DNA of 64,000 bases from Antedon bifida (lineage: Eukaryota; Echinodermata; Crinoidea; Comatulida; Antedonidae). The notes beneath the pieces are model-generated. The model saw only the letters and a list, made by a program, of their open reading frames with translations. It made no database searches and was not told the DNA's origin. This document shows, in pieces, positions 9,902-64,000 of this stretch. The stretch lies in NCBI GenBank assembly GCA_963402885.1, contig OY727096.1, forward strand, positions 8,131,501 to 8,195,500, written 5' to 3'. Every line of letters starts with the position of its first letter. The first letter of the stretch is position 1. Position numbers and translations under genes: made by a program.

Positions 9902-12070
9902 TTAATTTGTGAATGGACGGTTAACGTATTCAACTGCTTCACAAATATCTATGGACTCTGGCGTTTGTAGAGGAAGGACGGCTTCTTGTTTCTGGTGGCT
10001 TCTTGAAAGTTGAGCGAGATTGGAACGACGTGGTAGAAGATCAACGTATTCATCTTCATCATCTTTCTCGCATAGGCCTACGTCACTGGGCTTTGGCATC
10101 TGCGAAGGAATGACCACTTCTTGTTTCTGGTGGCTTCTTGGAAGTTGAACGAGATTGAAACGACGTGATAGCATTTTAATGTATTCATCTTCTTCATCTT
10201 TCTCGCATAGGCCTACGTCACTGGGCTTTGGCATCTGCGAAGGAATGACAACTTCTTGTTTCTGGTGGCTTCTTGGAAGTTGAGCGAGATTGAAACGACG
10301 TGATAGAACATTAACGTATTCATCGTCATCATCTGCTTCGCATACATCACTGTTTGGCATCTGCGAAGGAATGACCACTTCTTTTTGGTGGCTTCTTGGA
10401 AGTTGAACGAGATTGAAACGACGTGATAGAAGATTAACGTATTCATCTTCATTATCTGGCACTTCGCATACATCACTGTTTGGCGTTTGTAGAGGAAAGA
10501 CCAATTCTTGCTTCGGGTGGCTTCTCGGATGTTTAGCGAGATTGAAACGACGTGATAGAAGGTTAGTGTATTCAATTTCATTGTCTGCTTCGCATACGTC
10601 ACTGGGCTTTGGCGTCTGCGAAGGAATGACCACTTCTTGTTTCTGGTGGCTTCTCGGAAGTTGAGCGAGATTGAAACGACGAGATTGAAGTTTAACGTAT
10701 TCATCTTTTTCGCATACATCACTGTTGGGCGTTTGCAGAGGAATGACAACTTCTTGTTTCTGGTGGCTTCTCGGAAGTTCTTCAGCGAGACTGAAGCTTG
10801 CTACAATATTAACGTATTGTCCGTCATCTGTCTTGTTCTGTAATGTTGACTGGTTGATTGTTTGCTGGTGACCATCCACTACAGCTGCGTCAGTTTCATC
10901 AATATTATGATGTTCGAATTGCATGTTGGCGTCTGGATCACTGGTTTGGTTATTCACAGAAAAATGTGGATTGTTGTCATTGGGGTGGTAGTCACCAGTG
11001 TGTTTAACCTGTTTTCTCATGACGTATAGTAGAAATGTCAGTAAACCAACAATAAACAACAATATCGATATAGTCCCTACCAGGATGAATATCAACTTGC
11101 CATTCAACTGCCAGTTGCTACTATCCTGTTCATTAAGTGGTATGGTATCCTCAACAATGAAATATATCTCATCAGAAGCGTTCTGAGCATTGGTACTCAC
11201 CAGACACTTGATGTTGTAATCACCAGTTGGTAAGTTGTTCACGCATCTTTCAGACATGCGTTCATTCTTGTTTCCATTTAATTCAGCACCGTTTAATGTC
11301 CAGTAGTAATCCATCTCAGTACTGGAGCCACCGTTAGCTGTGCATCTAAAGCACCGATTATCTAGAAATAATACGTAAGTATTGATGTCCACTGTTAATT
11401 GAGGACGCACCTGTAATGTCGAACTATAGCAATACGTTTCCACTGCAGAGTTATTTTTAGATCCGAGTGAAATACAGACAAAGAATATACCTTCTCCAGA
11501 ATGGAAGCCTTGAAATGTCTGGTTCAATTGTACTGTATTGTTCTGATTCAAACCATCGAATTTCGTTGTGATATTGTAGCTTCCTTGAAGCCATCCAATC
11601 ATTATTTCTTGAGGTTCGAATAGTGGTTGTACTGTACACGGAAGCGTTACGAGCTCTCCCTCGATGATATCTGTCACGAAACCATCACAAGTAACAATCA
11701 ATTCATCGTTGTATGGTGGAAAATCTTGGCGAACAAAATCTGAAGGAAGTATATAGTATCTATTACCAGCGTCTTGACATGCATGAATGGCATTGTACAT
11801 GTCAACAGTTATCACGATTTGGCAGTTGACTTGGAAGGAGTAATCAAAGTATTTACTGAATCTTCTAACATTGTTGTAATGGATTTCAAACGTTTCTGAA
11901 GTTATTAACAAGTTTTCTTTTTTATTGGAAGGTAAGATTGCCAAAGAACCGGTATGTGATTGGCACGTATAATGAGAGTCAAACTTAATAGGGTTCATGA
12001 CTGCAGAGGCACGCCTGGCAACCAGAAAGCTGATTACTACAAAGTAAGAGCGAATAATAAGAAACGTCAT
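9902..12070 (-). CDS. Type I membrane receptor, Ig-like ectodomain, long tyrosine-repeat tail
   Basis: A single intronless 722-aa frame. Residues 1-23 are a signal peptide ending ARRASA. Residues 24-320 form about three small beta domains. The clearest are Ig-like: C145...W160...GEGIFFVC (to C199), and C240/C243...YYW...TGDYNIKC (to C289). About five N-glycosylation sequons are present. Residues 326-350 are one membrane helix followed by MRKQ. The tail is low in hydrophobicity and built from seven tandem units of 39-45 aa with tyrosines at 419, 458, 501, 544, 585, 630, 675 and 715. Motifs are YVN, YTN (Grb2-type pYxN), YIKM (PI3K-type YxxM), YVKL and YVDL, each preceded by acidic residues; units share RRFNL...LPRSHQKQE. 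The start matches the aligned ATG of its paralogue at 15088. Role is inferred: a surface receptor recruiting SH2 adaptors, possibly immune. I do not recognise an orthologue. Confidence 0.85.
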   Translation of the reverse strand: MTFLIIRSYFVVISFLVARRASAVMNPIKFDSHYTCQSHTGSLAILPSNKKENLLITSETFEIHYNNVRRFSKYFDYSFQVNCQIVITVDMYNAIHACQDAGNRYYILPSDFVRQDFPPYNDELIVTCDGFVTDIIEGELVTLPCTVQPLFEPQEIMIGWLQGSYNITTKFDGLNQNNTVQLNQTFQGFHSGEGIFFVCISLGSKNNSAVETYCYSSTLQVRPQLTVDINTYVLFLDNRCFRCTANGGSSTEMDYYWTLNGAELNGNKNERMSERCVNNLPTGDYNIKCLVSTNAQNASDEIYFIVEDTIPLNEQDSSNWQLNGKLIFILVGTISILLFIVGLLTFLLYVMRKQVKHTGDYHPNDNNPHFSVNNQTSDPDANMQFEHHNIDETDAAVVDGHQQTINQSTLQNKTDDGQYVNIVASFSLAEELPRSHQKQEVVIPLQTPNSDVCEKDEYVKLQSRRFNLAQLPRSHQKQEVVIPSQTPKPSDVCEADNEIEYTNLLSRRFNLAKHPRSHPKQELVFPLQTPNSDVCEVPDNEDEYVNLLSRRFNLVQLPRSHQKEVVIPSQMPNSDVCEADDDDEYVNVLSRRFNLAQLPRSHQKQEVVIPSQMPKPSDVGLCEKDEEDEYIKMLSRRFNLVQLPRSHQKQEVVIPSQMPKPSDVGLCEKDDEDEYVDLLPRRSNLAQLSRSHQKQEAVLPLQTPESIDICEAVEYVNRPFTN
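9926..10816 (-). repeat. Coding minisatellite in the receptor tail
   Basis: Seven tandem units of about 117-135 bp, each a whole number of codons, encode the tyrosine repeats at residues 419-715 of the receptor. Units share the DNA text GGTGGCTTCT and GACGTGATAGAA on the plus strand. The two units reading CATAGGCCTACGTCAC differ from the unit reading CATACGTCAC by an exact 6-base insertion. The paralogue at 13685-15088 has only about one unit here, so copy number has changed since duplication. Confidence 0.85.
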
Positions 12071-13684
12071 CTTAAGTTTAGAGGTTAATAAAAATCCCTT
12101 TGTGACAAAACTTTTATGCTGTTTACGTCTCCCGTTGCAGTATTATGTACATCATTTTCCAATGCAAGAAATATTAAAGCGAATTCTTAATATTAGAAGA
12201 CTCCGTTGATATTTCGACAATAATTACCGCACCGTTATTTCTGCAATGCTGTACCTCGAAGTCCTTCAACACCGAGATGTGTGTAATTTAAAATGTCTAT
12301 CGACACAGTCTATCCTTGCGTCTATCTACAGTAATTCACTGTTTTCTATCGGAAGGAATGAACTATAACGACATTCGGATGACATACATCATGTTCTGGC
12401 TGTTTGTGTTTTAAGATGTACAATCATAATAAATGTATCTATGCAGTGTTTTAGTTTTTCATGTACAAAATTGATCGCAACAAGGAAATACAATAAGTAT
12501 CGATAATTCATTTAAGGCAAAAATGTTTTAATTAACTAGACTTTTGTCCGCCCTGGAGTTTCCAGAGTAGGCGATGCAAAATTTGAGCAACCTTAATTAC
12601 CCGTTTATACTGCATGGAACTTTTGCTAAACTAGACTTTTTGGCTGACACATAGTTCCCATATTACACAATATATAAACAATATATAGTTCCCAAATTAC
12701 ACAATATATAAACAATTTTTGCTTCGTTATTAAACAATTTATTTATGTACAATTTATCATAATAGCTTGACAGTATCGTAGACCGAGCATGACGTGTTGT
12801 CGACAGACAGTAGGAAGCTTTCGATTTGCGACAGCCGAGGACCGACTACCAGCCAAAAGTCAGGTGAATCGATGTTTCGTTCGTCGCCTGGACCTAAAAC
12901 CATCAAACCTGTGTCGGGGTGGCAGCAAGGTCATACGTCCCGATATTACCGCATGCGCACATTGAACTAACATGACGTAGTTTGGTCGTCGGTCATCGCA
13001 AATCAAAGGCTCCTTAGTAACTTATTTTCTACACACAACCGGCTACGGTACTGTTTCATGAAAAAAGCATGCAGAAAACAAGTAGTAGTACTCGATATTT
13101 TATGGCGCGCTTTCTAAAACATTATAATAACCGCGCTGTATTTACATTTTAAAAACAGTGTATAGAATGAGATTGAATCTACACGAATAGACGGAAATGT
13201 CGAACAAACGCCTACGAATTATAACAAATAATGTGCGGCCCTAATGTTTCTATGTTTATACACAAGTGGAAATGGGGTGTCCTTTATGTTCATGTTGTAA
13301 AGCTAATAATTCCTTCTGTATTTATAGTTGTAAAGGCAAGTAAAGTTACATTTTTGAAAGTGTACTATACGGCAGATTATATTTTGAGAAGTGTAAAGAA
13401 AACAACGTCACATCGGCGTAGAACAAGTGTATGCGGAAAATTAGATTGTTGGCCTTGTGCCAATAGGCCTACTATTAGGCCTTAATAAGCTAAGGTCTAC
13501 CTTCTCGGCTTTGGTATAGTTTAGTAAGGTGATATCTTTATTTAAGTTTTCAATTATACGAATTTAAATAAATTATATTCAGATTTATCTATATTAAGGA
13601 TTGTAAGAGTCCTTGTAAATATTGTCTTACAGCTATTTATATTTTTAGTGACGTCATTGTACATAATCATTCCCTTCTACTGCA
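12071..13684. other. Spacer between the two receptor genes
   Basis: It holds the 5' flank of gene 1 and the 3' flank of gene 2. A direct duplication of about 38 bp (CATAGTTCCCATATTACACA and a near copy) lies at 12650-12715. The frame at 13231-13485 falls in the duplicated 3' flank and has no homologous open frame in the other copy, so I do not call it a gene. Confidence 0.5.
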
Positions 13685-15088
13685 TTAATAATTGATGTAT
13701 TCCGCTTCATCATCTGCTTCAAATACATTACTGAATTCTGACGTTTGCAGAGAAATGATTTCTTGTGACTGTTGGCTGCCCGAAAGTTCTGGCTTGTGAG
13801 TGAGATTAAAACTCGACGCAAGGTTAATGTATTCCCCATCATCCGTCCTGTATACCATGTGCCTTGCTGCTTCCAGAGGAGTGATCAAATGTTCGTCAGC
13901 TGCAGCTTCGTCGTAAATAGCATGATGTCGAAGTTCAACTTGCATGTTGACGTCTGGATGTTCATTGGTTTGGCTATTCACAGCAACGTGTGTTTGGTTG
14001 TTATTGGGATGGTAGCCACCAGTGTGCTTAAGCTGTTTTCTCATGACGTATAGTAGAAATGTCAGTAAACCAACAATAAACAGCAATATCGATATAATCC
14101 CTACCAGGATGAATATCAACTTGCCATTCAACTGCCAGTTGCTACTATCCTGTTCATTAAGTGGTATGGTATCTTCAACAATGAAATATATCTCATCAGA
14201 AGCGTTCTGAGCATTGGTACTCACCAGGCACTTGATGTTGTAATCACCAGTTGGTAAGTTGTTCACGCATCTTTCAGACATGCGTTCATTCTTGTTTCTA
14301 TTTAATTCAGCACCGTTTAATGTCCAGTAGTAATTCATCTCAGTACTGGAGCCACCGTTAGCTTTGCATCTAAAGCACCGATGATCTAGAAATAATACGT
14401 AAGTATTGATGTCCACTGTTAATTGAGGACGCACCTGTAATGTCGAACTATAGCAATACGTTTCCACTGCAGAGTTATTTTTAGATCTGAGTGACACACA
14501 GACAAAGAATATACCTTCTCCAGAATGAAATCCTTGAAACGTCTGGTTCAATTGTACTGTATCGTTCTGATTCAAACCATCGAATTTCGTTGTGATATTG
14601 TCGCTTCCTTGAAGCCATCCAATCATTATTTCTTGAGGTTCGAATAGTGGTTGTACTGTACATGGAAGCGTTACGAGCTCTCCCTCGATGATATCTGTCC
14701 CGAAACCATCACAAGTAACAATCAATTCATCGTTGTATGGTGGAAAATCTTGGCGAACAAAATCTGAAGGAAGTATATAGTATCTATTACCAGCGTCTTG
14801 ACATGCATGAAGGGCATTGTACGTGTCAACAGTTATCACGATTTGGCAGTTTACTTGGAAGGAGTAATCAAAGTATTTGCTGAATCTAACATTGTTGTAA
14901 TGGATTTCAAACGTTTCTGAAGTTATTAACAAGTTTTCTTGTTTAGTTGAAGGTAAGATTGCCAAAGAACCGGTATGTGATTGGCACGTATAATGAGAGT
15001 CAAATTTAATAGGGTTCATGACTGCAGAGGCACGCCTGGCAACCAGAAAGCTGATTACCACAAAGTAAGAGCGAAAAAGGAACGCCAT
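13685..15088 (-). CDS. Type I membrane receptor, Ig-like ectodomain, short tail (paralogue)
   Basis: An intronless 467-aa frame. Residues 1-22 are the signal peptide, 23-320 the Ig-like ectodomain, and about 325-349 the membrane helix. Over residues 1-358 it differs from the neighbouring paralogue at about 20 positions, so it is roughly 94% identical, including one single-residue gap (VRRFSKY versus VRFSKY). After the membrane-proximal segment the tails diverge sharply. This tail is about 117 aa, with two tyrosine motifs: DDGEYINLA (Tyr420) and AEYINY at the very C terminus (Tyr464). Both are acidic-flanked YxN motifs matching the Grb2 SH2 consensus. The intervening SFNLTH...QQSQE...LQTSEFSNVFEAD corresponds to one degenerate copy of the repeat unit expanded in the other gene. 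This may be the ancestral or a contracted form. The native ligand and pathway are unknown. Confidence 0.83.
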   Translation of the reverse strand: MAFLFRSYFVVISFLVARRASAVMNPIKFDSHYTCQSHTGSLAILPSTKQENLLITSETFEIHYNNVRFSKYFDYSFQVNCQIVITVDTYNALHACQDAGNRYYILPSDFVRQDFPPYNDELIVTCDGFGTDIIEGELVTLPCTVQPLFEPQEIMIGWLQGSDNITTKFDGLNQNDTVQLNQTFQGFHSGEGIFFVCVSLRSKNNSAVETYCYSSTLQVRPQLTVDINTYVLFLDHRCFRCKANGGSSTEMNYYWTLNGAELNRNKNERMSERCVNNLPTGDYNIKCLVSTNAQNASDEIYFIVEDTIPLNEQDSSNWQLNGKLIFILVGIISILLFIVGLLTFLLYVMRKQLKHTGGYHPNNNQTHVAVNSQTNEHPDVNMQVELRHHAIYDEAAADEHLITPLEAARHMVYRTDDGEYINLASSFNLTHKPELSGSQQSQEIISLQTSEFSNVFEADDEAEYINY

Positions 15089-22522: not shown

Positions 22523-22712
22523 AAGCTCTGTCTACACTATCAAACTTTATGCGACAACAAAATGTGCTCATATATGGACATACCACTACCATATTTAGGG
22601 ATATCACTACCATATTTAGGGATATCACTACCATATTTAGGGATATCACTACCATATTTGGGCACATCACACTTTTTTTGTCAAACTAGTTTGATAGTGT
22701 AGACAGAGCTTT
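22523..22712 (+). mobile_element. MITE family A (AGCTCTGTCTACACTATC termini), copy 1
   Basis: Terminal inverted repeats of about 22-24 bp, starting AAGCTCTGTCTACACTATC and ending GATAGTGTAGACAGAGCTT. The interior has four tandem 21-bp units reading CACTACCATATTTAGGGATAT. TTA or TA flanks suggest a TA-type target. No coding capacity. Confidence 0.85.
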
Positions 22713-29300: not shown

Positions 29301-32300
29301 ATAATAACCTGCTTGTTGCGCGTCAACGTTAGCATGCCATAGACTTTGACCTGGTTCACCCTGCATACTTTTGAGTATGCGCTGTACTATGTTTTCCGGT
29401 GTTCTTTTGCCTTGCGTTGTTGCGTGAAATCAAACTGATTTGATTTCCTGTAGTGATGTTTGAAGCACTGTTACCTCGTCGGTTCCCACTTTTGATGGGA
29501 TTACGCAATACAGCACTTTGCGTCGCTGCGTTACGTTGCGTTCTAGTGGGAATCACGCTTAAGGAATGTAAATAAAATGCGTAAAATACAGTACATTACA
29601 GACATTATTCTCGAATGGGACTCTAGTCTAGCGTCCTCTAGATCACAGAGTTTTTTTTTTGTTGGCCAGGAATAGATTTGAACCCAAGAATCAGTACTGA
29701 ACCAACATGATCATCTAATTACAGTACAACATTTTTTACGAGGACATCCTTCAGGATTCAACAAAGTGTCCAATTAATAGAGGTTTCCCCTGTGTAGGGG
29801 TTGGCAAGAATTTTTTTTTTACAGAAAAGTAGTTCGCTCCCCTAGTATGAGCGTTCAAAAGCAGGTTTCAACCATACTACAAAGTAGCAATTGTGTTGAG
29901 TAAAGACTTACATTAGCTCTATGATGCAAAGCAATATCAATATATAATTTCAAAATTGAATCAACTTACTTTTTTAATATCTTGGCCATCAATAAGAATA
30001 TCTCCTCCATTTAAATCATAAAAACGGAACAGTAAACGGATGATGGTACTTTTACCTGCTCCAGATGGACCAACCTGCAATTGGCAAAAACCGATATTAT
30101 TCAATATAATATCTCTATACAAAAACCAACAAATGAATAATATACTGAAATAGTCTTTTTATAGTTATGTTTTACTCTGTCTACATTATCAAACTGACAT
30201 GATGTCATATCACTACCATATTTAGGCATATCACTACCATATTTAGGCATATCACTACCATATTTAGGCATATCACTACCATATTTGGGCATATCACTAC
30301 CATATTTGGGTACATCACTTTTTTGTCAACCCTAGTTTGATAGTGTAGACAGAACTTAAATTACGTTAGCAAATACTCACCAAAGCAACTGTTTCTCCTG
30401 CATTGACGGTAAATGATATGTTCTTCAAAATTTTTCGCCTGTTGAAATTACAAAATGGTTTTTAGCTTGACAAAGTAAAATTATACTGTAAAACCTCAAA
30501 AAGAAGCCCGTTTTAGGACTCTTAGGTGGGCTTCTTTTCGAGATTACTCTGCAAACTGAAGACGGGGCTTTTTTTTCGAAATGAATGCTGTAAATTTTGT
30601 GAATTGCTAATACAATAATATGATTTTTGAGACATTCTCTGCCAATTGCACATATTTTCCAAGAAAGCAGAAGATACAAGATGCAATCAAAGAACCATTT
30701 GGAAAACAATAAATATATGAGGCTTAATTGTTGAGATAATTGGGTTGTATGATCATTAATATCAATACGATATTAAACACGATTACACATTTTTATTCAA
30801 ATACAGTCTATCTTAAAAAGAATTCCAGACAATCTTGGAAAGAAACCCAATGTGCTCGAGATGTGTTACATTTTGCCAAAATAAAAGAAATAATGATAAA
30901 ATTTAATAAATCTATGTACAAATTAAAATATTGATGTACTTACTTTGAATTGTAATGAAATGAAACATCCCTAAATTCAACCTTTCCTTTAGTTAGTATT
31001 AATGTCTTAGCATTGGGATCATCACAAACCTGAACAAAAAACAAAATTATATATATACAAATTATAAATTGTATTTGTTGATGAATTAAGAAATTTAACT
31101 GGTTCATATTCAATATCAATAAGAGAATGGACACGGACATTAGACATTAATGTTGTTGTTACATAAATGGAGCTGTGAAAATGGTTCCTTTGCGCCGTAT
31201 TCAATTTGATTTTGGTATATTTAGGATATTTCATGGATTTTTCTATATTTTTTTATGTAAAATGCTTAGGAATATTTGTATTATGCATTATATTAAACAA
31301 CCATTATTATTATATAAGAATATCATAAGGTGACTTCCAAGTATACGTTCTTATAAAAAGAATAAATGTTATTTGTAACATAAGAATAAATAACTTACAT
31401 CTTGCTTAGCTTCCATCAAATCAATCATGTTCTCCATGTCAATAAAAGCCTGTTGAATCATCCTAAACAAATCAAGAAATTAAATAGTATCTATCACTAA
31501 AACAGAACATTATTAAATATTAGTAATAATAAAGATGATTATTTTATAAAAAACAAGAAATAAACAAACAAATATCAAAACTGTGAATAGCATTTGATGT
31601 ATCAGAACCACTAAACAATATAATACATGTTAACATCATCACCATCACTACACCACCACTTATACTGCCCTCGCCCCAATAGTGCCATACCAAAATCATC
31701 TGAACTCTCATTACCAAAATCAAGCACATAATTGCCAACATCTTATTTATGGCTGACATCTGTCTCAAATGACAATGACAATTAGTCCTACATGCATCTG
31801 TGCAGGACTGTTTAAAGCACCTTGGTTGTCCCCATCATTTATAAAGGGCTTCTCTCGTCCAGTGTGCCCACCTTAATCAGAGGAAAGGCAGAGTCAATAC
31901 GTCTGAGGAAGACACTTGATGCAGGAGTCAGCAGGGCCGATTTCAAATGCATGATGGGACCTCAGCTCCGTTTGTTTATAAAGTACCCGATATTGCCAGA
32001 TGGTCTCCCATCCAAGCTCTAACCGGTCCTAACCTTGCTCAACTTTGGTGACCAGACGAGAACTGGTGTTTCAACATGTTAAGGCCATACATTGCTTTTA
32101 TATTATTATAAATATCATCCTCTTACCACTGCTTTCATCACCACCTAAATCACAAACTCACAATACCATATCAAAAATAGTTATTACCTGTAGTAAGTAC
32201 CAAAGAAATTCAACGGTGCATACAACTGCATTATATATGTTGAAAACAATACATAATCTCCAACCTACAAAATAGAGAAATTGATTTTTCCTCATTTAAA

Positions 32301-35300: not shown

Positions 35301-38300
35301 CCGATGTACATAGACGAGCAGTAACGGTAATAAAATATGGAATCTATGTAATTTCTTATGACCATTTACACACAATGCGGAGCGGATGGGCGGTTTCCGC
35401 TCAGGATAGATACAGATTCTATGTTGGACACCCGTTACCGCTCGCCTGTGTAAATTGGCCTTTACACTATATATATATTGTTATATAACAAATAGCAAAT
35501 TTTTTCATTTGTACAAAATAAAGATGAAATGTTCTATTCTTCCTTCCAACAAACCTTAGAATGCTATTGATACTGGTTGTCCCTCTGTCCATAATTCGAA
35601 GAACCTCTCCAGTTTTGCGGTTTAGATGCCAATGAAGGGACAACCTACAAGCAGGAAAACAAGTTGACTTACTTGGGAATTTAGCATGGGGTGACGGATA
35701 AGATACTGTATACACAATCCATAACAATGGGTGCCTTCTTAAAAGCTCTTTCCACACTATCAAACTTTATGTGACAACAAAATGTGATCTGCCCATATAT
35801 GGACATGATGATGTCGTATCACTACCATATTTGGGGATACCACTACCATATTTGGGTACACCACAAGTTATTTTGGTGAAATTAGTTTGATAGTGTAGAC
35901 AGAGGTTAACAGTGCCTAGAGTGGGTGAAATCATTTAATTTCTGTGTAAATTCTTCCCATCATCATCTGCCCAGCACTTTATATCAATAGGACTGATAGC
36001 TTAAATCTCCCTACTCTTCTGATAATGGCAGAAGTCTCTCCATATTACAAGTCATTTCCCGTGGCTCTCCCGCTATAATGCAGTTTCTCCTGATATTTTG
36101 AATAAACCAACAAATTCTCCAGATATGTATACATTTATAATTTTTAACTATTCTAGATTGATAAGGGAATAAAAACCTAATACTACAATTCGTTCGTTCC
36201 ATAAGATGATTATAATTAATTCATGGTTGTTTAATAAGTCAAATATTGCCTAACACATGTTTACAACTAAAGATGCCAATATCTTGTCATAGCGTCCTCT
36301 ATGGGTTTATGTATTATTATTAATTATTATTATAGCACCCTCTATAGATTTATAAAGTTTTATACCTCCCAATATTTCAGTTTTCCTAGGTGGGAGGTCT
36401 GAATGGCTGGTTTATTCAAATCGTGCACATTTTATTGGTATATTACTCATGTACAGTAGGTAAAAAACAGAATGTTGTGCAATGTAGTTATTAAATGGCA
36501 AACTGTAATAATATTTAAACTAGGTAAACTCTGCCCAACTTAAGCAGAATACCAGGCTTTTTATTTTGAAAATGGCAGGCCTAATTGCCTTTTGGAAATT
36601 ACAGGTGCCCTACAAATTGCACTCCTCAACACATTCAGCAGGTGTGCTTGCTGTTTGTATCTTGGTGTGTAGAAGTTACTAAATATAAGTTTCAGTGTGC
36701 TGTAAATCACACACCTCAAGGTATTTTTAAGTTTTCTATGCAAGTGATCACACCTAAAAAACAATGCCTGGAAGCATTATTTTTCTTCCTATGCGGTTAA
36801 GGCAGAAATCATTAATAATTAATTAAAATAATTTTGACATAATATGGGACATTATAGAGAGATTAAATAATTTGTGTAAACGGCGTTTGGCAACCGAAAT
36901 GTTTGGTCTAGTGGTAAAGGCTTTAACCTATTACACTATTTTTTAATAGTTGAGAGAGATTATTTAGAGGGTTAGGTTTAGTATATTTAGGAAGTAGATC
37001 AGCTATCTGGCAATTCTTTATAATAGAAAATAATTAAGGTAATGAATTATTCATGATTTCTGCCTTAACCTTATAGTTATAAATAAATAATGCGGCCTGG
37101 AATAATTACAATCGTGGATGAATTATTTTTCAGTAATCAGTAATAGATTATTAGTTTACCCATGTAGATGAGCAAAGAGCCGGACCATGATGCTTTTTGC
37201 TGTATACTGTTGAACATTGATCCAAAGAAACGATCGCAAGTTGTTTAGTAACCCAAGTCCACCTGAAAACATTTAAAATAAGAATTTTACAAAACAACTT
37301 TGAAAAGTCAATTAGAAGAAATGTGTATGTATCTGAATATATTCATGCAAGAGAGAAATACATTTCACATTAGTGTGACCAGAAATGTCTTCAGGGTTAT
37401 TAAAAAGAATAAAAACTTTGATAGGAAGGTGATTATTATTATTTTTGATATTTCAAATGTTCCAGGTACAGTAAACTTCCTTCTTTTTCAGGGAGTGGAA
37501 ACCTTATGACACTGTTTCTTGTGAAATAATCGACGGAAATGTCTTCAAGGTGTCTCCTCTACTGTAGTAAATGTATTCATTATTTCATAAATAAATAGAT
37601 TAACTTTTGAAATATATAGACTTACCAAAACCACCACCTTGCAGGAATTTTATAGCGACGTAAGTGACGATTAACTTCCATGGATTTATGGTTGCACCTT
37701 CCTCAGAATCCTCTGTCAATTTATCAACTATGTACAACAGAATAAGAAAGAAATGTCATTGTTATTAAACAGAGAAAAGACAAGGGGGTAAAGTAGAGAG
37801 GAATTAGGGTTCCTCATGCCTATAGCATTGTGTCTGTAAAGCCGCTGGTAAGGTCGGTTGCACCCTGTCATTTACCCTGTAGACCGGGCGGTTTTCATGT
37901 GAAAAGCCACAAAAGGTTTGGTGGTCTATATTTGTATTTATGCATATTTAGCCTAGTGTAGTTGATTTTTTTTAATGACAACAAAGATAGTGTACTACTA
38001 GTAGGAAGATATCACACTTCTTAAGGTCATACCAAAATATTTCTTAAAAAATGAAGCAGGCAAGGTGTTATAACATTCGTAAAGCTGGTTACTTATTCGC
38101 CAGGGGTGTAAATGCTTACAAGTTTGCAGAACTAGGGTGGCAAATGGTAGAGTAGGTAAAGAGTCATCAATCCATACCAAAATATTTTGTTACTTATTCG
38201 CCGTAGATACAAAAAAGTTCGCGGAAAATGGTAAAGTAGGTCAAAAATATTTTTTTAAATAATAAGTAGGTCAAGTTTTATAACGTTCGGAAAACTAATT

Positions 38301-47300: not shown

Positions 47301-49206
47301 GGGCCCATCTTAAACGATTCGTACAAAGGGACACCGCCAGACTAGATCGCTATAATAAGTAAAATAGGTATAAACAATAATAAGTCTCAAGGCACTGAAG
47401 TGACCCCAAATCAAATGGTTTTTTTTAACTGTATATTATATTCTGCGACGAAAAGTCTGCCACCATTTTTATGCACATTACGTGAATAGCTATGTCGTAA
47501 TATCAACAGTTTGTGTCATTTTGTAACGGTTAACTAAAAAAATCGGTATTTGAGAGATTCGCAATTTCACTAAGACGCTTAGTGTCATTGATTGCTTTTG
47601 TTAATATATTTTTTTTATATTTTGCACATAATTTAGTTTAGGTTTCCTTGTAAATATTTTTTTTTCTTTATCTTTTATTTTACCTATTCTGAAACGCACC
47701 TTCATTCAAGAAGTGTGTCGCTGTTTTAAAAGCGTAGCTTTCCAAATAAATTATTTGGACAGTCGGTCAGCCCGTGCAGAGTCATATATATTGAAAGAGT
47801 TAAAGGATTTTAGAAAATCACGTGGTACATCACATTCTGTAATTATCCGTGGTGTTTTATTTTCAATTTGCCGTGCGCGTGTTTCATTTTAAGTTGCTGT
47901 GGTGTTTTTGTTAAATTGTGGTATTTTATTTTTAATTTGCCGTGATTTTTTATTTCAAAATTGCAGTGGGGTTTTGTTTTAGTTGCCGTGGTTTTTTGTT
48001 GTAAATTGCCGTGATATTTGTTTTAAGTTGCACGGCCGTGACACTTTTTTTTAGGCTAGCATGTGGTCCGAGGGCGCTAGACATTCGGCCAGCCCGTGGT
48101 CGCTCGCATCATAGTCAATTGACTATGATGAAACCAAAGATAGTGTAGTAGGTGAAACATACACAGTATGTGGTCCGAGGGCGCTAGATTACTATTTAAG
48201 TAACTAAGGAGGGCAGGCCGGCCTTCTATAAGTATAGGTGCATGAAGTAGGCATTAGTAAAAGTTGTTAGCTTTATATTTACAATTATATACAATATTTT
48301 CTAAATTCTTCTTTACAATATATTCTCTATATTCTACTGTTTTTTTGCTTAATTGTGTTTTTGTTTCTTATTTTACAGTAATTTTAATAAGCTTTTTTTT
48401 TATTAACATTTTTATATATAAACAAGACCATATGGCTGCAGTCGCGTGCTCAAATTTGAGTTAGTGTTTACCGACCGTCCGACATAATAACCCTGGACAT
48501 TTTGTATATTTTCCGTAATTTTTTTTTTTTTAATATAAAGGACAAACTTGACCTTGAATGAACTTACAGTTAATTCTTCATTCCTATCCTCATTCACCAT
48601 CAAATTGTAATTCCTTCTCGGTAACGCTGGTGCTCGGAAACCAATCACAAAGAGAAGAAATATAAGAACGTAACGACACACCCAAAGACCAAACGCGGTC
48701 TTCTGATCCTTGTTGCTGAGTTTCCACCACCATTGAGGACTATGCCACGAAACAAACGCCAACGTTTCGTTAACCAACGCACATGTCCAAAATATTAATA
48801 AAACAATTCCGTGACCTCTACCGCTGTAACTCATCAAAGTTTTTGAACGTTCCGTCCATAACAACGCAAGAGATATCATCCACGAAAGTATATAAAATAT
48901 CGTACTTAGTTCATTGTACCCATGAAGATGGCCTGCGTAATGTGTTGCAAAACCTATACGCATAATATACTGGATAATGATCAGTGAAGAAAGAATAATT
49001 TGGATTCTAAATCCTTTTGGTTGAGGTTGAAATTGTTGTTCAAGTCTGATAGCCCACATCCAGTAGACAAGCAATTGAGCACCTCCACCAAGAACCATGC
49101 CGGCCAGTAGAATCGATGATGTCACCGTGTCAAGAAAACAGATTGAGAAGCCATTTTGTGTCCATGCTGGAAGAACAGACGAGTTGTATGCACAGTATGA
49201 AAGCAT
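23399..49206 (-). CDS. ABCB6: ABC transporter B family member 6, complete, 19 coding exons
   Basis: Half-transporter linked to porphyrin and heavy-metal transport in mitochondrial outer, endolysosomal and plasma membranes. Exons in order: 49206-48568, 42887-42701, 37727-37626, 37262-37160, 35644-35555, 34783-34662, 34146-34037, 33357-33292, 32811-32686, 32264-32188, 31462-31399, 31029-30944, 30438-30381, 30074-29970, 27977-27904, 27526-27426, 27270-27158, 25065-24902, 23525-23399. All phases agree, giving 837 aa (human 842). Exon 1 is the family-specific N-terminal TMD0 ([10 protein letters not shown]). Exons 2-10 are the core membrane domain ([32 protein letters not shown]). Walker A GPSGAGKS starts at residue 612, then Q-loop Gln660, signature LSGGEKQR 716-723, Walker B Asp740/Glu741 and His772. 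All catalytic motifs are intact. I chose Met at 49206 because the upstream ATG sits next to a possible acceptor (TTATTATAG), suggesting a 5' UTR intron. Intron 17 has a GC donor. Splice joins come from reading, not cDNA. Confidence 0.95.
25130..25465 (+). mobile_element. MITE with TATTGTCCCCC termini, copy 2
   Basis: In ABCB6 intron 18, only 65 bp from exon 18. Termini TATTGTCCCCCTAAAAAATA and GTTTTTGGGGGACAATA. The body aligns with 8965-9274. The right end is followed by an (AAT)n run of four or five units before a CATCTTTAA flank that copy 1 also has. Confidence 0.75.
26230..27110 (+). repeat. Tandem array in ABCB6 intron 17, unit about 130 bp
   Basis: GTTGCTACTAGGTGGACACA recurs at about 26320, 26448, 26581 and 26715, so the period is about 130 bp; diverged units continue to about 27110 with a shortened period. 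Units contain CTACAGTGGCATACATAATG and CTACTAGTGTCAGAAACAT. Sub-blocks of GCTACTAGT recur inside units. The array ends about 50 bp before the unusual GC splice donor of exon 17. Confidence 0.8.
29230..29560. mobile_element. MITE with AAGCGTGRTTCYCACTAG termini
   Basis: Left end AAGCGTGGTTCTCACTAG then CGACGCAACGTAACGCAAC. Right end GTTGCGTTCTAGTGGGAATC then ACGCTT. The inverted ends share about 35-40 bp with a few mismatches. The element is 331 bp, non-coding, in ABCB6 intron 14. Confidence 0.75.
29662..29724 (-). mobile_element. Possible tRNA-derived SINE fragment
   Basis: On the minus strand, a box B-like GGGTTCAAATC follows an A box-like stretch (GATCATGTTGG) at roughly tRNA spacing. The match is weak and no tail is defined. 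Confidence 0.22.
30172..30357 (+). mobile_element. MITE family A, copy 3
   Basis: Degraded left end (CTCTGTCTACATTATCAAAC), right end GTTTGATAGTGTAGACAGAA. Interior with five tandem units reading CACTACCATATTTAGGCATAT. Lies in ABCB6 intron 13. Confidence 0.8.
31815..32096 (-). mobile_element. 5S rRNA-derived SINE (SINE3-like)
   Basis: The minus strand from about 32096 down to 31985 reads as a diverged 5S rRNA: GGCCTTAACATGTTGAAACA, then CCAGTTCTCGTCTGGTCACC, then AAAGTTGAGCAAGG, GGACCGGTTAGAGCTTGGAT and GGGAGACCATCTGGCAATAT. These align in order with the internal promoter region of 5S genes. It continues into about 160 bp of non-5S sequence with CATCAAGTGTCTTCCTCAGA, as expected for a SINE body rather than a 5S gene. 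It lies between ABCB6 exons 10 and 11. The 3' limit is approximate. Confidence 0.75.
34432..34544 (-). mobile_element. MITE with TATTGTCCCCC termini, truncated copy 3
   Basis: Read on the minus strand it starts TATTGTCCTCCTGAAAAAAT and continues GTTGAATATGCCAT...TTATTCACTTT, matching the left half of the copy at 25130. The right half is missing. Confidence 0.6.
35296..35464. mobile_element. MITE with AAGGCC(G/A)ATGTACA-type termini
   Basis: Left end AAGGCCGATGTACATAGACG then AGCAGTAACGG. The right end is the inverse, ending CCGTTACCGCTCGCCTGTGT then AAATTGGCCTTTA. The inverted ends span about 45 bp, interior about 75 bp, flanked by TTA/TTTA. In ABCB6 intron 5. Confidence 0.65.
35743..35907 (+). 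mobile_element. MITE family A, copy 4
   Basis: AAGCTCTTTCCACACTATC left end and GATAGTGTAGACAGAGGTT right end. Interior with two CACTACCATATTTGGG-type units. ABCB6 intron 4, about 100 bp from exon 5. Confidence 0.8.
38020..38760 (+). repeat. Tandem array in ABCB6 intron 2, unit about 105-150 bp
   Basis: Five to six diverged units share TTATTCGCCGTAGA, AAAGTTCGCAGAACTAAGGT, GGCAAATGGTAGAGTAGGTC and GGGTCATCGATCCATACC. The whole array is noncoding; frames at 37998-38180 and 38325-38507 arise from the repeats. Confidence 0.75.
39050..39204 (+). repeat. Older dispersed repeat, left part, split by the foldback element
   Basis: Shares GTAGTACCCTATTTATCTTC and ATTTCC(G/C)TACGT(T/C)CGTAA with the copy near 52020-52070, plus upstream TTGCCGGGG and a TAAG block. 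Its right part resumes at 40706. Confidence 0.6.
39530..39812 (+). repeat. 21-bp minisatellite, left arm of the foldback element
   Basis: About 13 units of ATGCAGTACACACCAATCGT plus one base, with variants AAACATC, GGTC and GCC at the unit end. Because 21 is a multiple of 3 it reads as (MQYTPIV)n on plus and (YCMTIGV)n on minus; neither is a real protein. The mirror array at 40147-40446 is its inverted partner. Confidence 0.9.
40147..40446 (-). repeat. 21-bp minisatellite, right arm of the foldback element
   Basis: About 14 units of TGCATGACGATTGGTGTGTA plus one base, inverse of the left array. The order of variant units differs between the arms, so the two arrays have changed independently since they formed. 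Confidence 0.9.
40706..41150 (+). repeat. Older dispersed repeat, right part
   Basis: Matches 52071-52380 in order: GAATTTCCGTAGTAAT, GACGTTCCGAA, GCTTCTTTCTGCAAAT, GGAGTGTGGTTTAA, TAGTGGATAAAT, TTTGCTCAATATATTTATAG and GACGTTCGCATTGAACG. The break relative to the other copy falls exactly at the foldback element. Confidence 0.65.
41690..41965 (+). repeat. CACGGCAA minisatellite, about 20-bp units
   Basis: GCCACGGCAATTTGAAAAAA repeats about five times, then drifts into CACGGCAAATTAAAAATAAA and CACGGCAAATTA units. The frame at 41485-41865 is only a reading of these units. An inverted relative lies at 47825-48045 in the same neighbourhood. Confidence 0.8.
42390..42428 (+). repeat. Poly-G tract
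   Basis: Runs of 18 and 14 G separated by TGTT, then TGGAG. Strong potential for G-quadruplex formation, and also a likely place for assembly error. Confidence 0.85.
43010..43080 (+). repeat. Dispersed repeat with GTCGGTCGGTCGGT
   Basis: TCACTATGTCGGTCGG...GTAAACACTAACTTGAGC then ACGTGACTGCAGCCAT. Related copies: 46430-46520 (same strand) and 48425-48490 (inverted, CATATGGCTGCAGTCGCGTG ... CGACCGTCCGACATA). All are in or beside ABCB6 intron 1. Confidence 0.5.
43975..44206 (-). pseudogene. Fragment of an RTE-like retrotransposon, endonuclease N terminus
   Basis: Minus-strand translation contains [19 protein letters not shown], which resembles the start of the apurinic endonuclease domain of RTE-type LINEs and their 'craniofacial development protein 2-like' relatives, typically RIGTWNVRTL. 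The frame hits a stop (TAA) directly after this motif where relatives have a lysine codon, and the domain is not continued. It is a dead fragment in ABCB6 intron 1. Confidence 0.5.
44448..44631. mobile_element. Near-perfect palindrome, foldback MITE
   Basis: Left arm CCCACTGGGTATATCCATGT followed by ATTTCTACTGTTAACTACTT and a GGGGTAAAACATCATTTTTT block; the right arm is the inverse, ending in ACATGGACATACCCAGTGGG. Almost the whole 184 bp pairs with itself. A partial direct copy of the left interior sits just upstream (about 44390-44440). Confidence 0.75.
47825..48045 (-). repeat. TTGCCGTG minisatellite, inverted relative of 41690-41965
   Basis: Units such as TTGCCGTGGTTTTTTGTT and GTGTTTTATTTTCAATTTGC repeat about seven times with drift. 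Read on the minus strand they are CACGGCAA units as at 41690. Confidence 0.7.
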
Positions 49207-49429
49207 TTTAAAATCTATAATAAACAAAAATAGGAATATTATGAGTCAGTACAGTTTCAAGATATCAACCAATTAATACAGATTTTAATTATACATTTTG
49301 TCTCGATGCTACAAAATGAATTAGAGTGTAGTGCTATGAATCTAACACATCTTCAACACTGAAACATACTGTAGTAGTAGGAGAGTTATTTGAAGTAGAA
49401 TAAAGCCAATCCTTTATTGTTATTGTTTT

Positions 49430-55087: not shown

Positions 55088-58000
55088 CTAGAGTTGTTCA
55101 ACCTTTTCCTTTTCACCCTGTGCAAAAACTAGCATGGCAAGTTGTTGTCGTGAGGCTAAGCCGTCTGCACGACTTTCTAAACATCGTTGGTAGTGATCTT
55201 CTCGGAGGGTTGGCTGGCAGACTCTTTCGTGATAACGTTCCTTAAGAGCTGGGTCGACAGCCCGGAAGACATGCAGCTTCGTTGCAAGAAACATCTCAAA
55301 GAGATCCGTGTCGGACTGGATGTGATCCGTGCTGCTTCCTGGGTGTTTCTCATCCCAGATTTGACGAGCATTTACAAAATCGGAGTTATAAAAGCTTGCA
55401 TGCTCATATAAAAGATTTTCAAAACGTCCAACATTTTTCGAGACCTCAATTTTTTCTGGATTTGGAGTATCCTTGTAGATAATGGTGGTGTCGTATTGTG
55501 AGAACGGAATTGGAAAGAAGACTTGGTAACCGAGAATAGAATTCATTCGAACACGATTTAGATATTCCTGGGATAATTCAGCATTTACAGTGCTGAGGAA
55601 AAATAAAGTTTCGGGTGGATGTTTCGCAGATATAACGTCCATAATGGCAATTGGAGATGGGATCGTGGTTTTCACGCTGATCCATGATATGCGAGAACCA
55701 GCATACTTTCTTACGTAATGTGACACGAGTTGTTTTATGTTACTGTAAATATCATCTTGAGCCATAACACGAGCTTCTGCAGGCGTATAGATAAAAATTA
55801 GCATCAAAGCAGAATTGTCGTGCGTTTCTAAGCAAACGGATGCATAAGACTCCAGAAAAACTTTCAGTTGTTCACGGTCATTTATCGTGACGGGAACAAT
55901 GATTGTTACCTGGTTGTACTCCGTCACGTAGGGCATGTTGATGATCTCCGCAGGCCCAAGCGGCCGCAGTAGTTGGACTCTTTTCTGGACTGTCTGCTTA
56001 TCTATAGTCTGTAACTGTAGATCTAATGTGTATTCCATACCTCTGGTTGGATCAAATCTTCGATAGCCGTTTACGAGTCTCCCTCCAGAGGAGAAGGTAT
56101 CACTGTAATCCGAGTTTAGCTTACTCATCGCGGTGCCTAGGATTTCATCAATATCTTGCTTGTCCGGACCAACTAATTGGGTTTTCGGGTTTATCTCAGA
56201 ATGACCATATATGTGAGTTGTCGTAAAATACTGCCATCCAATCACGTCGAATCGTGTAGTCGGCTTAAATGGTTCGTTAGTACCGGTTGGCCACGTCCAT
56301 CCATCCTCACCAGCTGGTGTGTAAGGAACAACCTTTTCAATCTCGTTTTTTATTTTCTCTATTTCCAGTTCCGTTTCATTAATGGCTACCTCTGAGAAGA
56401 ATTTGTGAAGTTGGTAGATAGAGCGTCTCTCTGTCACGTGAAAGACTGTGATGGCTTGTCGCATGTGTGCATCATTCATTTCTAACTCGCCAAGTGATTT
56501 TCCATCAAAGTTGTAACTGTTATAAATTGAACCCTACAAAATATAAAATTTAAAAAATACAGTATATTATTATATAAATTACAGTATATAATTATTGTAC
56601 AATTTGTGTTATATACAGTATATTAATTTATTTATTTTATTTCAAAACTCAAACCAACAGCAAAATTAATTCGCAATTACAGGAGGGTTAACATGCAATA
56701 CAGAAAGGGAGCCAAATACAATGAACATAGGCCTATACTAATTTATATTTATTTTAATAAATAGCATTAAACTATTATAATAAACTACTAAAAAATATTA
56801 ATAAAACATTTTTTTTATTGACAGGAATCAACAAACTTTGTGGTATATTATTTCAAATGGTTGTTGCCATGCGGTAATGGGTTAAAATCTGCTTTTAATT
56901 GGTCGAATGATGATGCTAATGTTCATTTTGTAAAGTTTTAATTAATAAAATTATCCATTTTTTAATTTTACTATTCCTTTGGTTATTTTTATACTGTTAT
57001 TTCTAAGCAATTTTTAACCTTTAGTTTATATTTTTATATCTATGCGTCAGTGTAAAGCTACACTATCAAACTTGTTTGATAAAAAAAAAGTGTGATGTGC
57101 CAAAATATGGTAGTGATATGCCTAAATATGGTAGTGATATAACATCATCATATCCATGGGCACATCACATTTTTTTGACACATAAAGTTTGATAGTGTAG
57201 ACGAGCCTTAAAGCATCATGTACTAATCCATATAGTGGACAGTGGATTAATTTGCATTGAATAAGCATTTAGCTACAAGGTACAGTATTCTTGGCCTAAT
57301 TAAGATGCAGGCCATAGCATTGTAGTCTTTACCTCATAAAGACTGGTACACTGTTGATTGGCATGCTGATAAACACATCTACCAACTTCAAGATCAGATA
57401 GACTACTGGTTGATGTCTTAATACAATCACCGATGTCTGGCCCGAATTTCTTTAGCAAATTCCGAGAAATGATGTAACCTGAAATAGAAATGAATAGAGA
57501 ATACAATGATGTATATTTTTATACTGTGGCTTCATGGTGAAAATACTACAACAATACTACAGTGATCTTCATAAGTTAGGATGCCCTTGGCTGGTCACAA
57601 AGAAAATAGTGTACGCTTGGATCAGAACGGTCAGATTTGGCATTATAAAGACAAAGCAAAATGTTTGTATGAAAACACAAATGAATACTGTATGATGTTA
57701 CAATTCCACACATTACATAGGAGGTTTTTTTTTCATATTAGGCCTACTGATTTTCTGGGCAATCAAATTAATTTTGATCGGTATTATTTTAGATTAAAGC
57801 TCTGTCTAACAGTCTACATTACCAAACTTTATGTGACAAAAAAATGTGATGTATCAATATATGGACATGATGATGTCATACTGTATCACTACCATATTTA
57901 AGCATATCACTACCATATTTGGGCACATCAAACCTTTTTTGTAAAACTAGTTTGATAGTGTAGACAGAGCTTTAAACTTCATAACCTTACTGTTAAACAT

Positions 58001-59184: not shown

Positions 59185-64000
<4,816 letters not shown>

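Follow-up and report, generated by a model that had tools for sequence, protein, structure and literature searches.

Vertebrate paired immunoglobulin (Ig) receptors (KIR, LILR, SIRP, CD300A/C) are encoded by clustered Ig-like genes and carry near-identical ectodomains on different tails. In CD19, CD22, and nephrin, one Ig-type chain bears many phosphotyrosines in its cytoplasmic part and serves as receptor and scaffold at once; these sites are not known to have arisen from one unit duplicated in tandem. LAT-type adaptors have a very short ectodomain and a membrane-proximal CxxC, and CLEC-2 and Dectin-1 are type II proteins. In the available parts of the respective papers, CD300A/C is described as a paired system with common ligands (PMC12447643), the hemi-immunoreceptor tyrosine-based activation motif (hemITAM) is defined by the consensus DGYxxL and an accompanying triacidic stretch (PMC3819593), and the Hydractinia Alr genes are presented as a 41-gene invertebrate Ig superfamily (IgSF) family in one region (PMC11999971). 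Here we analyze a 64,000-nucleotide stretch of the crinoid Antedon bifida genome (assembly GCA_963402885.1, contig OY727096.1, forward-strand positions 8,131,501 to 8,195,500; hereafter the window, whose positions are used below unless a contig is named). At 9902..12070 on the minus strand it holds a gene for a predicted Ig-like receptor with an array of eight tyrosine motifs in its tail. Our favored explanation, for which we consider the case evenly balanced, is that this gene encodes a single-exon Ig-like type I receptor of a large clustered family whose members vary in tail valency and would signal in the manner of immunoreceptors.

The receptor gene and its tail array

A sequence-only reading of the window had proposed an Ig-like type I receptor, encoded without introns, in whose tail acidic tyrosine motifs have multiplied into an array. 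Our analysis supports this proposal. The gene (coordinates include the stop codon; all features of this gene and its paralogue lie on the minus strand) is a single exon of 722 amino acids, read as one open reading frame (ORF) without an internal stop. Hydropathy shows a hydrophobic N-terminus, predicted to be a signal peptide (residues 1-23, 12002..12070, with an inferred cleavage site), and one membrane span without a charged residue (residues about 326-348, 11027..11095). The remaining ~375 residues (residues 349-722, 9905..11026) are predicted to form a cytoplasmic tail, given the signal peptide and the basic residues that follow the span. Within 600 bases past the stop codon AATAAA was not found, only the variants TATAAA and AGTAAA; the paralogue described below has one AATAAA in the corresponding interval.

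Tandem Repeats Finder (TRF) and unit alignment place seven tandem units of 39-45 amino acids between eight tyrosine motifs (9926..10816). The tyrosines fall exactly where they had been reported, at Tyr419 (DDGQYVNI, codon 10814..10816), Tyr458 (KDEYVKL, 10697..10699), Tyr501 (EIEYTNL, 10568..10570), Tyr544 (EDEYVNL, 10439..10441), Tyr585 (DDEYVNV, 10316..10318), Tyr630 (EDEYIKM, 10181..10183), Tyr675 (EDEYVDL, 10046..10048), and Tyr715 (AVEYVNR, 9926..9928), spaced from first to last by 39, 43, 43, 41, 45, 45, and 40 residues. One additional tail tyrosine, at 361, lies outside these eight sites. The site motifs run YVNI, YVKL, YTNL, YVNL, YVNV, YIKM, YVDL, and YVNR, which confirms the earlier tally of five YxN sites, one YIKM, and the pair YVKL and YVDL; asparagine thus occupies +2 at five of the eight sites, and a hydrophobic residue occupies +3 at seven. 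Acidic residues precede every tyrosine, as had been claimed, numbering 2, 3, 3, 4, 5, 5, 5, and 2 among the five positions immediately N-terminal to it.

The description of the tail as a coding minisatellite agrees with two TRF calls, one of period 258 and score 1018 (9959-10779) and one of period 135 and score 931 (9971-10779). Assembly artefact had been raised as a way in which the long tail might prove spurious; stutter in the assembly is unlikely because the units have diverged from one another (pairwise proportion of synonymous differences, pS, 0.08-0.66). A shadow ORF of 178 amino acids runs in another frame of the array (10213-10749, minus strand), as expected because the array period is a multiple of three. 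When the 312-residue repeat tail was searched against the genome, no other gene with this unit was found, and the sole weak match was the neighboring paralogue (E 0.009).

A paralogue with a shared ectodomain and a two-site tail

Neither this paralogue nor the genome-wide family described below figured in the sequence-only reading. The paralogue (13685..15088, 467 amino acids) is placed 1.6 kb upstream of the 722-residue gene and combines a near-identical ectodomain and membrane span with a tail containing two YxN sites. Its ectodomain is 95% identical to that of the window gene at the protein level. Compared 60 bases at a time, the pair agrees at 52-60 positions from just 5′ of the ATG through the membrane span (12082-10997), at 21-38 in the 5′ flank, and at 21-49 in the tail. 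Local alignment gives 97% identity over 1014 nt of ectodomain and 83% over 232 bp of 3′ flank, and no match between the 5′ flanks exceeds 31 nt. Synonymous divergence (dS) tells a similar story, at 0.07 for the ectodomain and transmembrane (TM) region (ratio of nonsynonymous to synonymous divergence, dN/dS, 0.33) and about 1.2 for the proximal tail, the latter on 44 synonymous sites. Gene conversion is suspected because the ~97% identical block (10997..12082, a candidate conversion tract by windowed and local alignment) reaches from the start codon through the whole membrane span. In the simplest history, the pair would have arisen by tandem duplication at an earlier time, with later gene conversion confined to the signal peptide, ectodomain, and membrane span. 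Among the 45 gene pairs shown, this pattern of shared ectodomain and divergent tail is clear only in the window pair.

The paralogue contains a single unit homologous to the array unit (13697..13831), lying between the YxN tyrosines Y420 and Y464, which are 44 amino acids apart. With the tyrosine motifs excluded, this segment resembles all seven array units: shuffled proteins reached the observed scores 0-21 times in 5000, and shuffled DNA in 0 of 1000 for each of the seven. The segment is homologous to every unit, and therefore the array represents seven copies of a segment present once in the neighbor. In both genes the first and last tail sites are YxN.

A clustered family with an Ig-like ectodomain

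The genome searched comprises 315.6 Mb in 27 contigs. Its mitochondrial COX1 scores 811.9 bits against the best PDB chain when translated with genetic code 9, which echinoderms and flatworms share, and 787.0 bits with code 5; an echinoderm source is most likely on these grounds, and the adjacency of COX1 and COX2 would perhaps suit a brittle star. The whole window protein gave at least 62 scored matches, and the ectodomain of a relative gave at least 118 at E ≤ 0.001. At least 81 of the latter, the window pair included, appear intact (coverage of 200 or more of the 343 query residues, 330 or more amino acids in open frame, and no stop). These occupy 17 places on five contigs, with 11 members on contig 1, 1 on contig 7, 38 on contig 9, 28 on contig 12, and 3 on contig 14; all of these family counts are minimum figures. 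When 26 members are aligned, the ectodomains other than that of the paralogue are 30-36% identical to the ectodomain of the window gene.

Tails were read for 56 of the at least 81 members. A first set of 54 ORF rows yielded 41 after removal of 3 duplicates, 7 ORFs shorter than 250 amino acids, and 3 without a clear TM span, and a second set added 15, among them one (L029) that runs off its sequence tile. The median tail has 93.5 residues and 6 tyrosines, and the longest has 908 residues and 34 tyrosines. Positive selection on the ectodomain was assessed in nine of 11 chosen pairs, not pooled, and most domain ratios are below 1. Ratios above 1 are 2.39 and 1.32 in region 1 (two pairs that share one gene), 6.76 and 1.36 in domain 2 (two pairs with very low dS), 1.14 in domain 3 of one pair, and those of several signal peptides.

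The ectodomain appears to be Ig-like, judged from its residue pattern and weak profile matches. Region 1 (residues 24-125, 11696..12001, approximate boundary) contains C83 and C98; around C98 the family consensus is GIYTC and the window gene reads AIHAC. This is the least sure Ig assignment of the three regions. Domain 2 (residues 126-223, 11402..11695) is defined by alignment and an AlphaFold2 (AF2) model, and domain 3 (residues 224-310, 11141..11401) by alignment and a sub-threshold Ig_3 match at residues 223-273. Their C145/W160/C199 and C243/W257/C289 triads are invariant in all 26 aligned members, and loose Cys-Trp-Cys patterns for regions 1, 2, and 3 are present in 52, 56, and 52 of the 56 members. 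Profiles and structure prediction had been suggested earlier as a check on the ectodomain. The AF2 model of domain 2 alone is all-beta with seven strands (predicted local distance difference test, pLDDT, 71.6), and the Ig_3 matches of the window protein score 18.3 and 20.3 bits against a Pfam curated cut-off of 30, which no match of this protein reaches. Scanning 26 members with Pfam gave Ig_3 in 6 (best E 3.2e-5), V-set_CD47 in 2, and Ig_2, V-set, and Lep_receptor_Ig in 1 each, and a profile of 26 sequences searched against the Protein Data Bank (PDB) matched CD22 best (E 0.0073). A whole-ectodomain model built from two sequences was discarded (pLDDT 38.6). A PDB search with the whole protein returned 29 matches up to E 10, of which those to the tail, namely a designed aldolase and WD-repeat proteins or designs (best E 0.00038), were judged spurious and those to the ectodomain were mainly IgA chains with E values of 0.54 and above.

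Several members stand out for other reasons. Three ORFs on contig 12 (L010, 2472506-2473519; L021, 25918948-25919919; L012, 25631764-25632573) have a hydrophobic N-terminus and no membrane span by hydropathy, and are possibly secreted forms or broken copies. The L021/L022 pair (contig 12, 25921885 and 25926198) is 100% identical over the gene and 600 bp on either side, and the L025/L027 pair (contig 9, 6238992 and 6258841) is 100% identical over the ectodomain and 600 bp upstream and 96% identical in the tail and downstream. Either very recent duplication or duplication in the assembly would account for both pairs.

Tail arrays in other subfamilies

Tail repeats are also found in other subfamilies, where they are unrelated to the window array and number from 0 to about 30 copies. 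The cluster at 25.6-25.9 Mb on contig 12 carries a 28-residue unit, DYVSSDTVIEKKRLQNARNENRETAEQT, present in 0, 1, 2, 3, 4, 5, 6, 10, or 30 copies per gene under a strict anchor. There are 67 such units in 19 genes, eight of which have none, and tyrosine is present in 66 of the 67; these counts cover 19 of the 23 listed genes, the four in L021/L022 being left out. At 6.2 Mb on contig 9 the unit is one of 31 residues, NSYETSGGSINVTDEPSTS..., with 5 and 15 copies in the two genes counted and tyrosine in 16 of 20, and two further genes of this cluster have repeat units of 52 and 28 residues. The idea of variable valency, implicit in the sequence-only reading, fits well with a neighbor that has two YxN sites and with relatives in which units of other repeats range from 0 to about 30; by that reading, repeat number would also set signal strength.

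In an ectodomain tree of 39 genes built by a quick method, array state changes at least seven times, a figure that should not be taken as an exact number of origins, as the tree is weak at its deep forks and conversion can also carry arrays from gene to gene. The array-bearing set in this tree is 13 genes, including two with only two units and excluding two others; the motif-enrichment and tyrosine-window tests below also use 13 genes, with those two-gene choices reversed.

Individual genes illustrate the range. L020 (contig 12, 25908395-25912159, minus strand) encodes 1254 amino acids with about 30 copies of the 28-residue tyrosine-containing unit and 34 tyrosines in its tail. L026 (contig 9, 6243469-6246147, plus strand) encodes 892 amino acids with about 15 copies of the unrelated 31-residue NSYETSGG unit, and a gene ~19 kb away (contig 9, 6262283) has an ectodomain 92% identical to that of L026 and a tail of only 72 residues.

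The conserved tyrosine motif

The YxN motif, and with it Grb2 binding, had been taken as the defining character of the array, and this part of the reading is not supported in that form: +2 asparagine is found at fewer array sites than +3 hydrophobic residues, and only the latter are enriched in the 43 non-array tails. There, a hydrophobic residue (Phi) follows at +3 in 72 of 234 tyrosines, against a shuffle mean of 42.7 and a maximum of 61 in 1000 shuffles, and 15 of 234 have asparagine at +2, against a mean of 22.1. Nor is +2 asparagine enriched in the 13 array-bearing genes (17 observed, shuffle mean 16.6). Of the 56 tails, 46 carry an acidic YxxPhi motif, frequently resembling EDVYYTIDD, and 13 carry a YF[VT]L-like motif at the C-terminus. 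In the window pair the acidic motif reads DDGQYVNI and, in the paralogue, DDGEYINL. The inhibitory-motif (ITIM) pattern [SIVLT]xYxx[LIV] fits one tail tyrosine of the window gene and none of the paralogue, and is not the main tail motif. The family-wide tail signature is thus YxxPhi with acidic residues upstream, with YxN an overlay in the window pair.

These counts bear on two alternative roles for the tail. Along the lines of the sequence-only reading, the window gene could encode a dedicated scaffold for Grb2-family proteins and PI3K, in which pYxN valency is central and LAT-like condensation takes place within the receptor. The five YxN sites, the one YxxM site, and the YxN character of both aligned tyrosines in the paralogue are in accord with this, and variable Grb2 valency among LAT, LAB, and LAX is presented as an established theme in the available text of PMC3291652. 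We nonetheless consider such a scaffold unlikely, given that YxN is not enriched family-wide in the non-array tails, and is missing at three of the eight window sites, and that other arrays have YVSSD or YETSG. A second alternative is that YxxPhi sites are mostly endocytic AP-2 signals and that the array tunes surface residence instead of kinase signaling. The proportion of array sites conforming to YxxPhi (7 of 8) and its acidic form in most of the tails would suit sorting. In our judgment eight copies seem beyond the needs of sorting; moreover, other arrays lack Phi at +3, and acidic residues before the tyrosine are generally better suited to kinase and Syk motifs, as in the triacidic rule for hemITAMs in the available text of PMC3819593. 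This sorting role we regard as slightly less probable still than the scaffold.

Weighing the signaling interpretation

The sequences speak directly to the anatomy and evolution of these genes, and all of the signaling steps that follow are what we infer from them. Tandem duplication of the segment between two tyrosine motifs has produced seven copies and eight sites, the neighbor has one copy and two sites, and probable gene conversion keeps the ectodomains of the pair alike. Ligand-driven clustering could then lead a Src-type kinase to phosphorylate the acidic YxxPhi sites, which might dock SH2 proteins of the Syk, SHP, or Grb2 type, with the array offering a mixture. The pair would sense the same ligand with differing docking valency. 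An immune role is suggested because of the size of the family, its clustering, and the paired-receptor-like pattern. More tentatively, docking valency may be a freely evolving genomic character, with unrelated tail repeats in several subfamilies providing 0 to about 30 sites and conversion able to preserve an ectodomain across tails that differ in valency, such that one ligand is read at several gains.

A number of observations weigh against the favored explanation. The tails of the window gene and its paralogue are still 81% identical over 324 nt in local alignment; the contrast between ectodomain and tail within the pair is large, yet not total. A charged TM residue is present in none of the 56 members, which show no sign of an activating/inhibitory split. 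The Ig assignment draws on sub-threshold profile matches, a residue pattern, and one single-domain model, and the commonest Pfam match in the 26 scanned members is Y_Y_Y (11 of 26, best E 0.00035), which is not filed as Ig. YxxPhi is not enriched in the 13 array-bearing genes (29 of 172 tyrosines, shuffle mean 28.2), and the commonest other repeat motif, YVSSD, fits neither YxxPhi nor YxN. Constraint on the window array is weak, with a ratio of nonsynonymous to synonymous differences (pN/pS) of 0.74 across all unit pairs, and tyrosine is just one among several array columns without amino-acid change. Finally, the chance of finding a tyrosine in a window of a non-array tail is 73% for 28 residues, 77% for 31, 88% for 43, and 92% for 52. 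One tyrosine per unit was accordingly rejected as proof of selection.

The array may instead be a neutral by-product, a coding minisatellite that slippage or unequal crossing-over enlarged because a disordered tail tolerates such growth, where the extra tyrosines add nothing and the first and last motifs do the work. This explanation retains a modest share of our belief because random windows usually hold a tyrosine and because of the pN/pS value among units; highly variable copy number, the unrelated repeat units of relatives, and the three sites without +2 asparagine also speak for it. The open frame of the arrays gives no argument against neutrality, as only open arrays were looked for. What does argue against it is that tyrosine is retained at all eight sites despite strong divergence of some units, together with the preceding acidic residues and the nearly constant hydrophobic +3 position, and that tail arrays arose or moved several times.

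Other features of the window

The window also contains ordinary neighbors identified by Pfam: the N-terminus of a mitochondrial ABC transporter (MTABC_N, 48412-49227), a chondroitin N-acetylgalactosaminyltransferase (55088-56479), and an AAA ATPase exon (62746-63204). A 21-bp satellite unit (CATATCACTACCATATTTAGG-like) is scattered at 22580-22670, 30206-30319, 35820-35864, 57092-57140, and 57885-57930.

Relationship to described receptors

The family is apparently undescribed so far. A full-text search of open-license PMC papers, judged by titles and abstract openings, found no description of such a receptor family, and the word "immunoglobulin" does not occur in the main text, as available, of two brittle-star genome papers (PMC11959729, PMC11310086). 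If the arrays signal, they would provide a natural titration of receptor valency, in which neighbors with nearly the same ectodomain have two versus eight sites and the unit count of relatives ranges from 0 to about 30. One could then test directly if the gain or threshold of an immunoreceptor depends on how many docking sites it has, and invertebrate immunology would gain a large family of Ig-like receptors encoded by single exons. The finding gains interest when widened from one gene to a family, and its Grb2 specificity shrinks.

Like KIR, LILR, SIRP, and CD300A/C, the genes analyzed here are clustered and Ig-like, and near-identical ectodomains with unlike tails occur in one pair, that of the window. 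Unlike those receptors, they are single-exon genes with tail repeats and no charged TM residue in the members read, and the window pair differs in site number, not in ITIM versus charged TM residue. Compared by description alone, Hydractinia Alr is likewise a large invertebrate IgSF family; it functions in cnidarian allorecognition, and the available text of PMC11999971 does not mention tandem tail arrays for it. CLEC-2 and Dectin-1 resemble the window pair in having acidic residues followed by YxxL/I in the receptor chain itself, here as DDG-x-Y-x-x-[IL]. They are lectins, in contrast to the Ig-like, eight-site, type I receptor of the window. Set against the DGYxxL consensus as available, DDGQYVNI and DDGEYINL have the acidic stretch but place a residue between G and Y, and the other array sites lack that G. 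In LAT, LAB, and LAX, too, a membrane-anchored chain bears several Grb2-type YxN sites, and valency matters there according to the available text of PMC3291652; the window gene differs in its ~300-residue ectodomain, the absence of CxxC after the TM span, and the repeat origin of its sites.

Further parallels are CD19, CD22, and nephrin, to which no homology beyond a possible Ig fold was found, CD22 being the best profile match. As multi-phosphotyrosine Ig chains, these make the earlier statement that no described family has this design too strong; the part that stands is the manner in which the sites arose. Relative to such known receptors, the tandem-repeat origin of the sites and its recurrence within the family are unusual.

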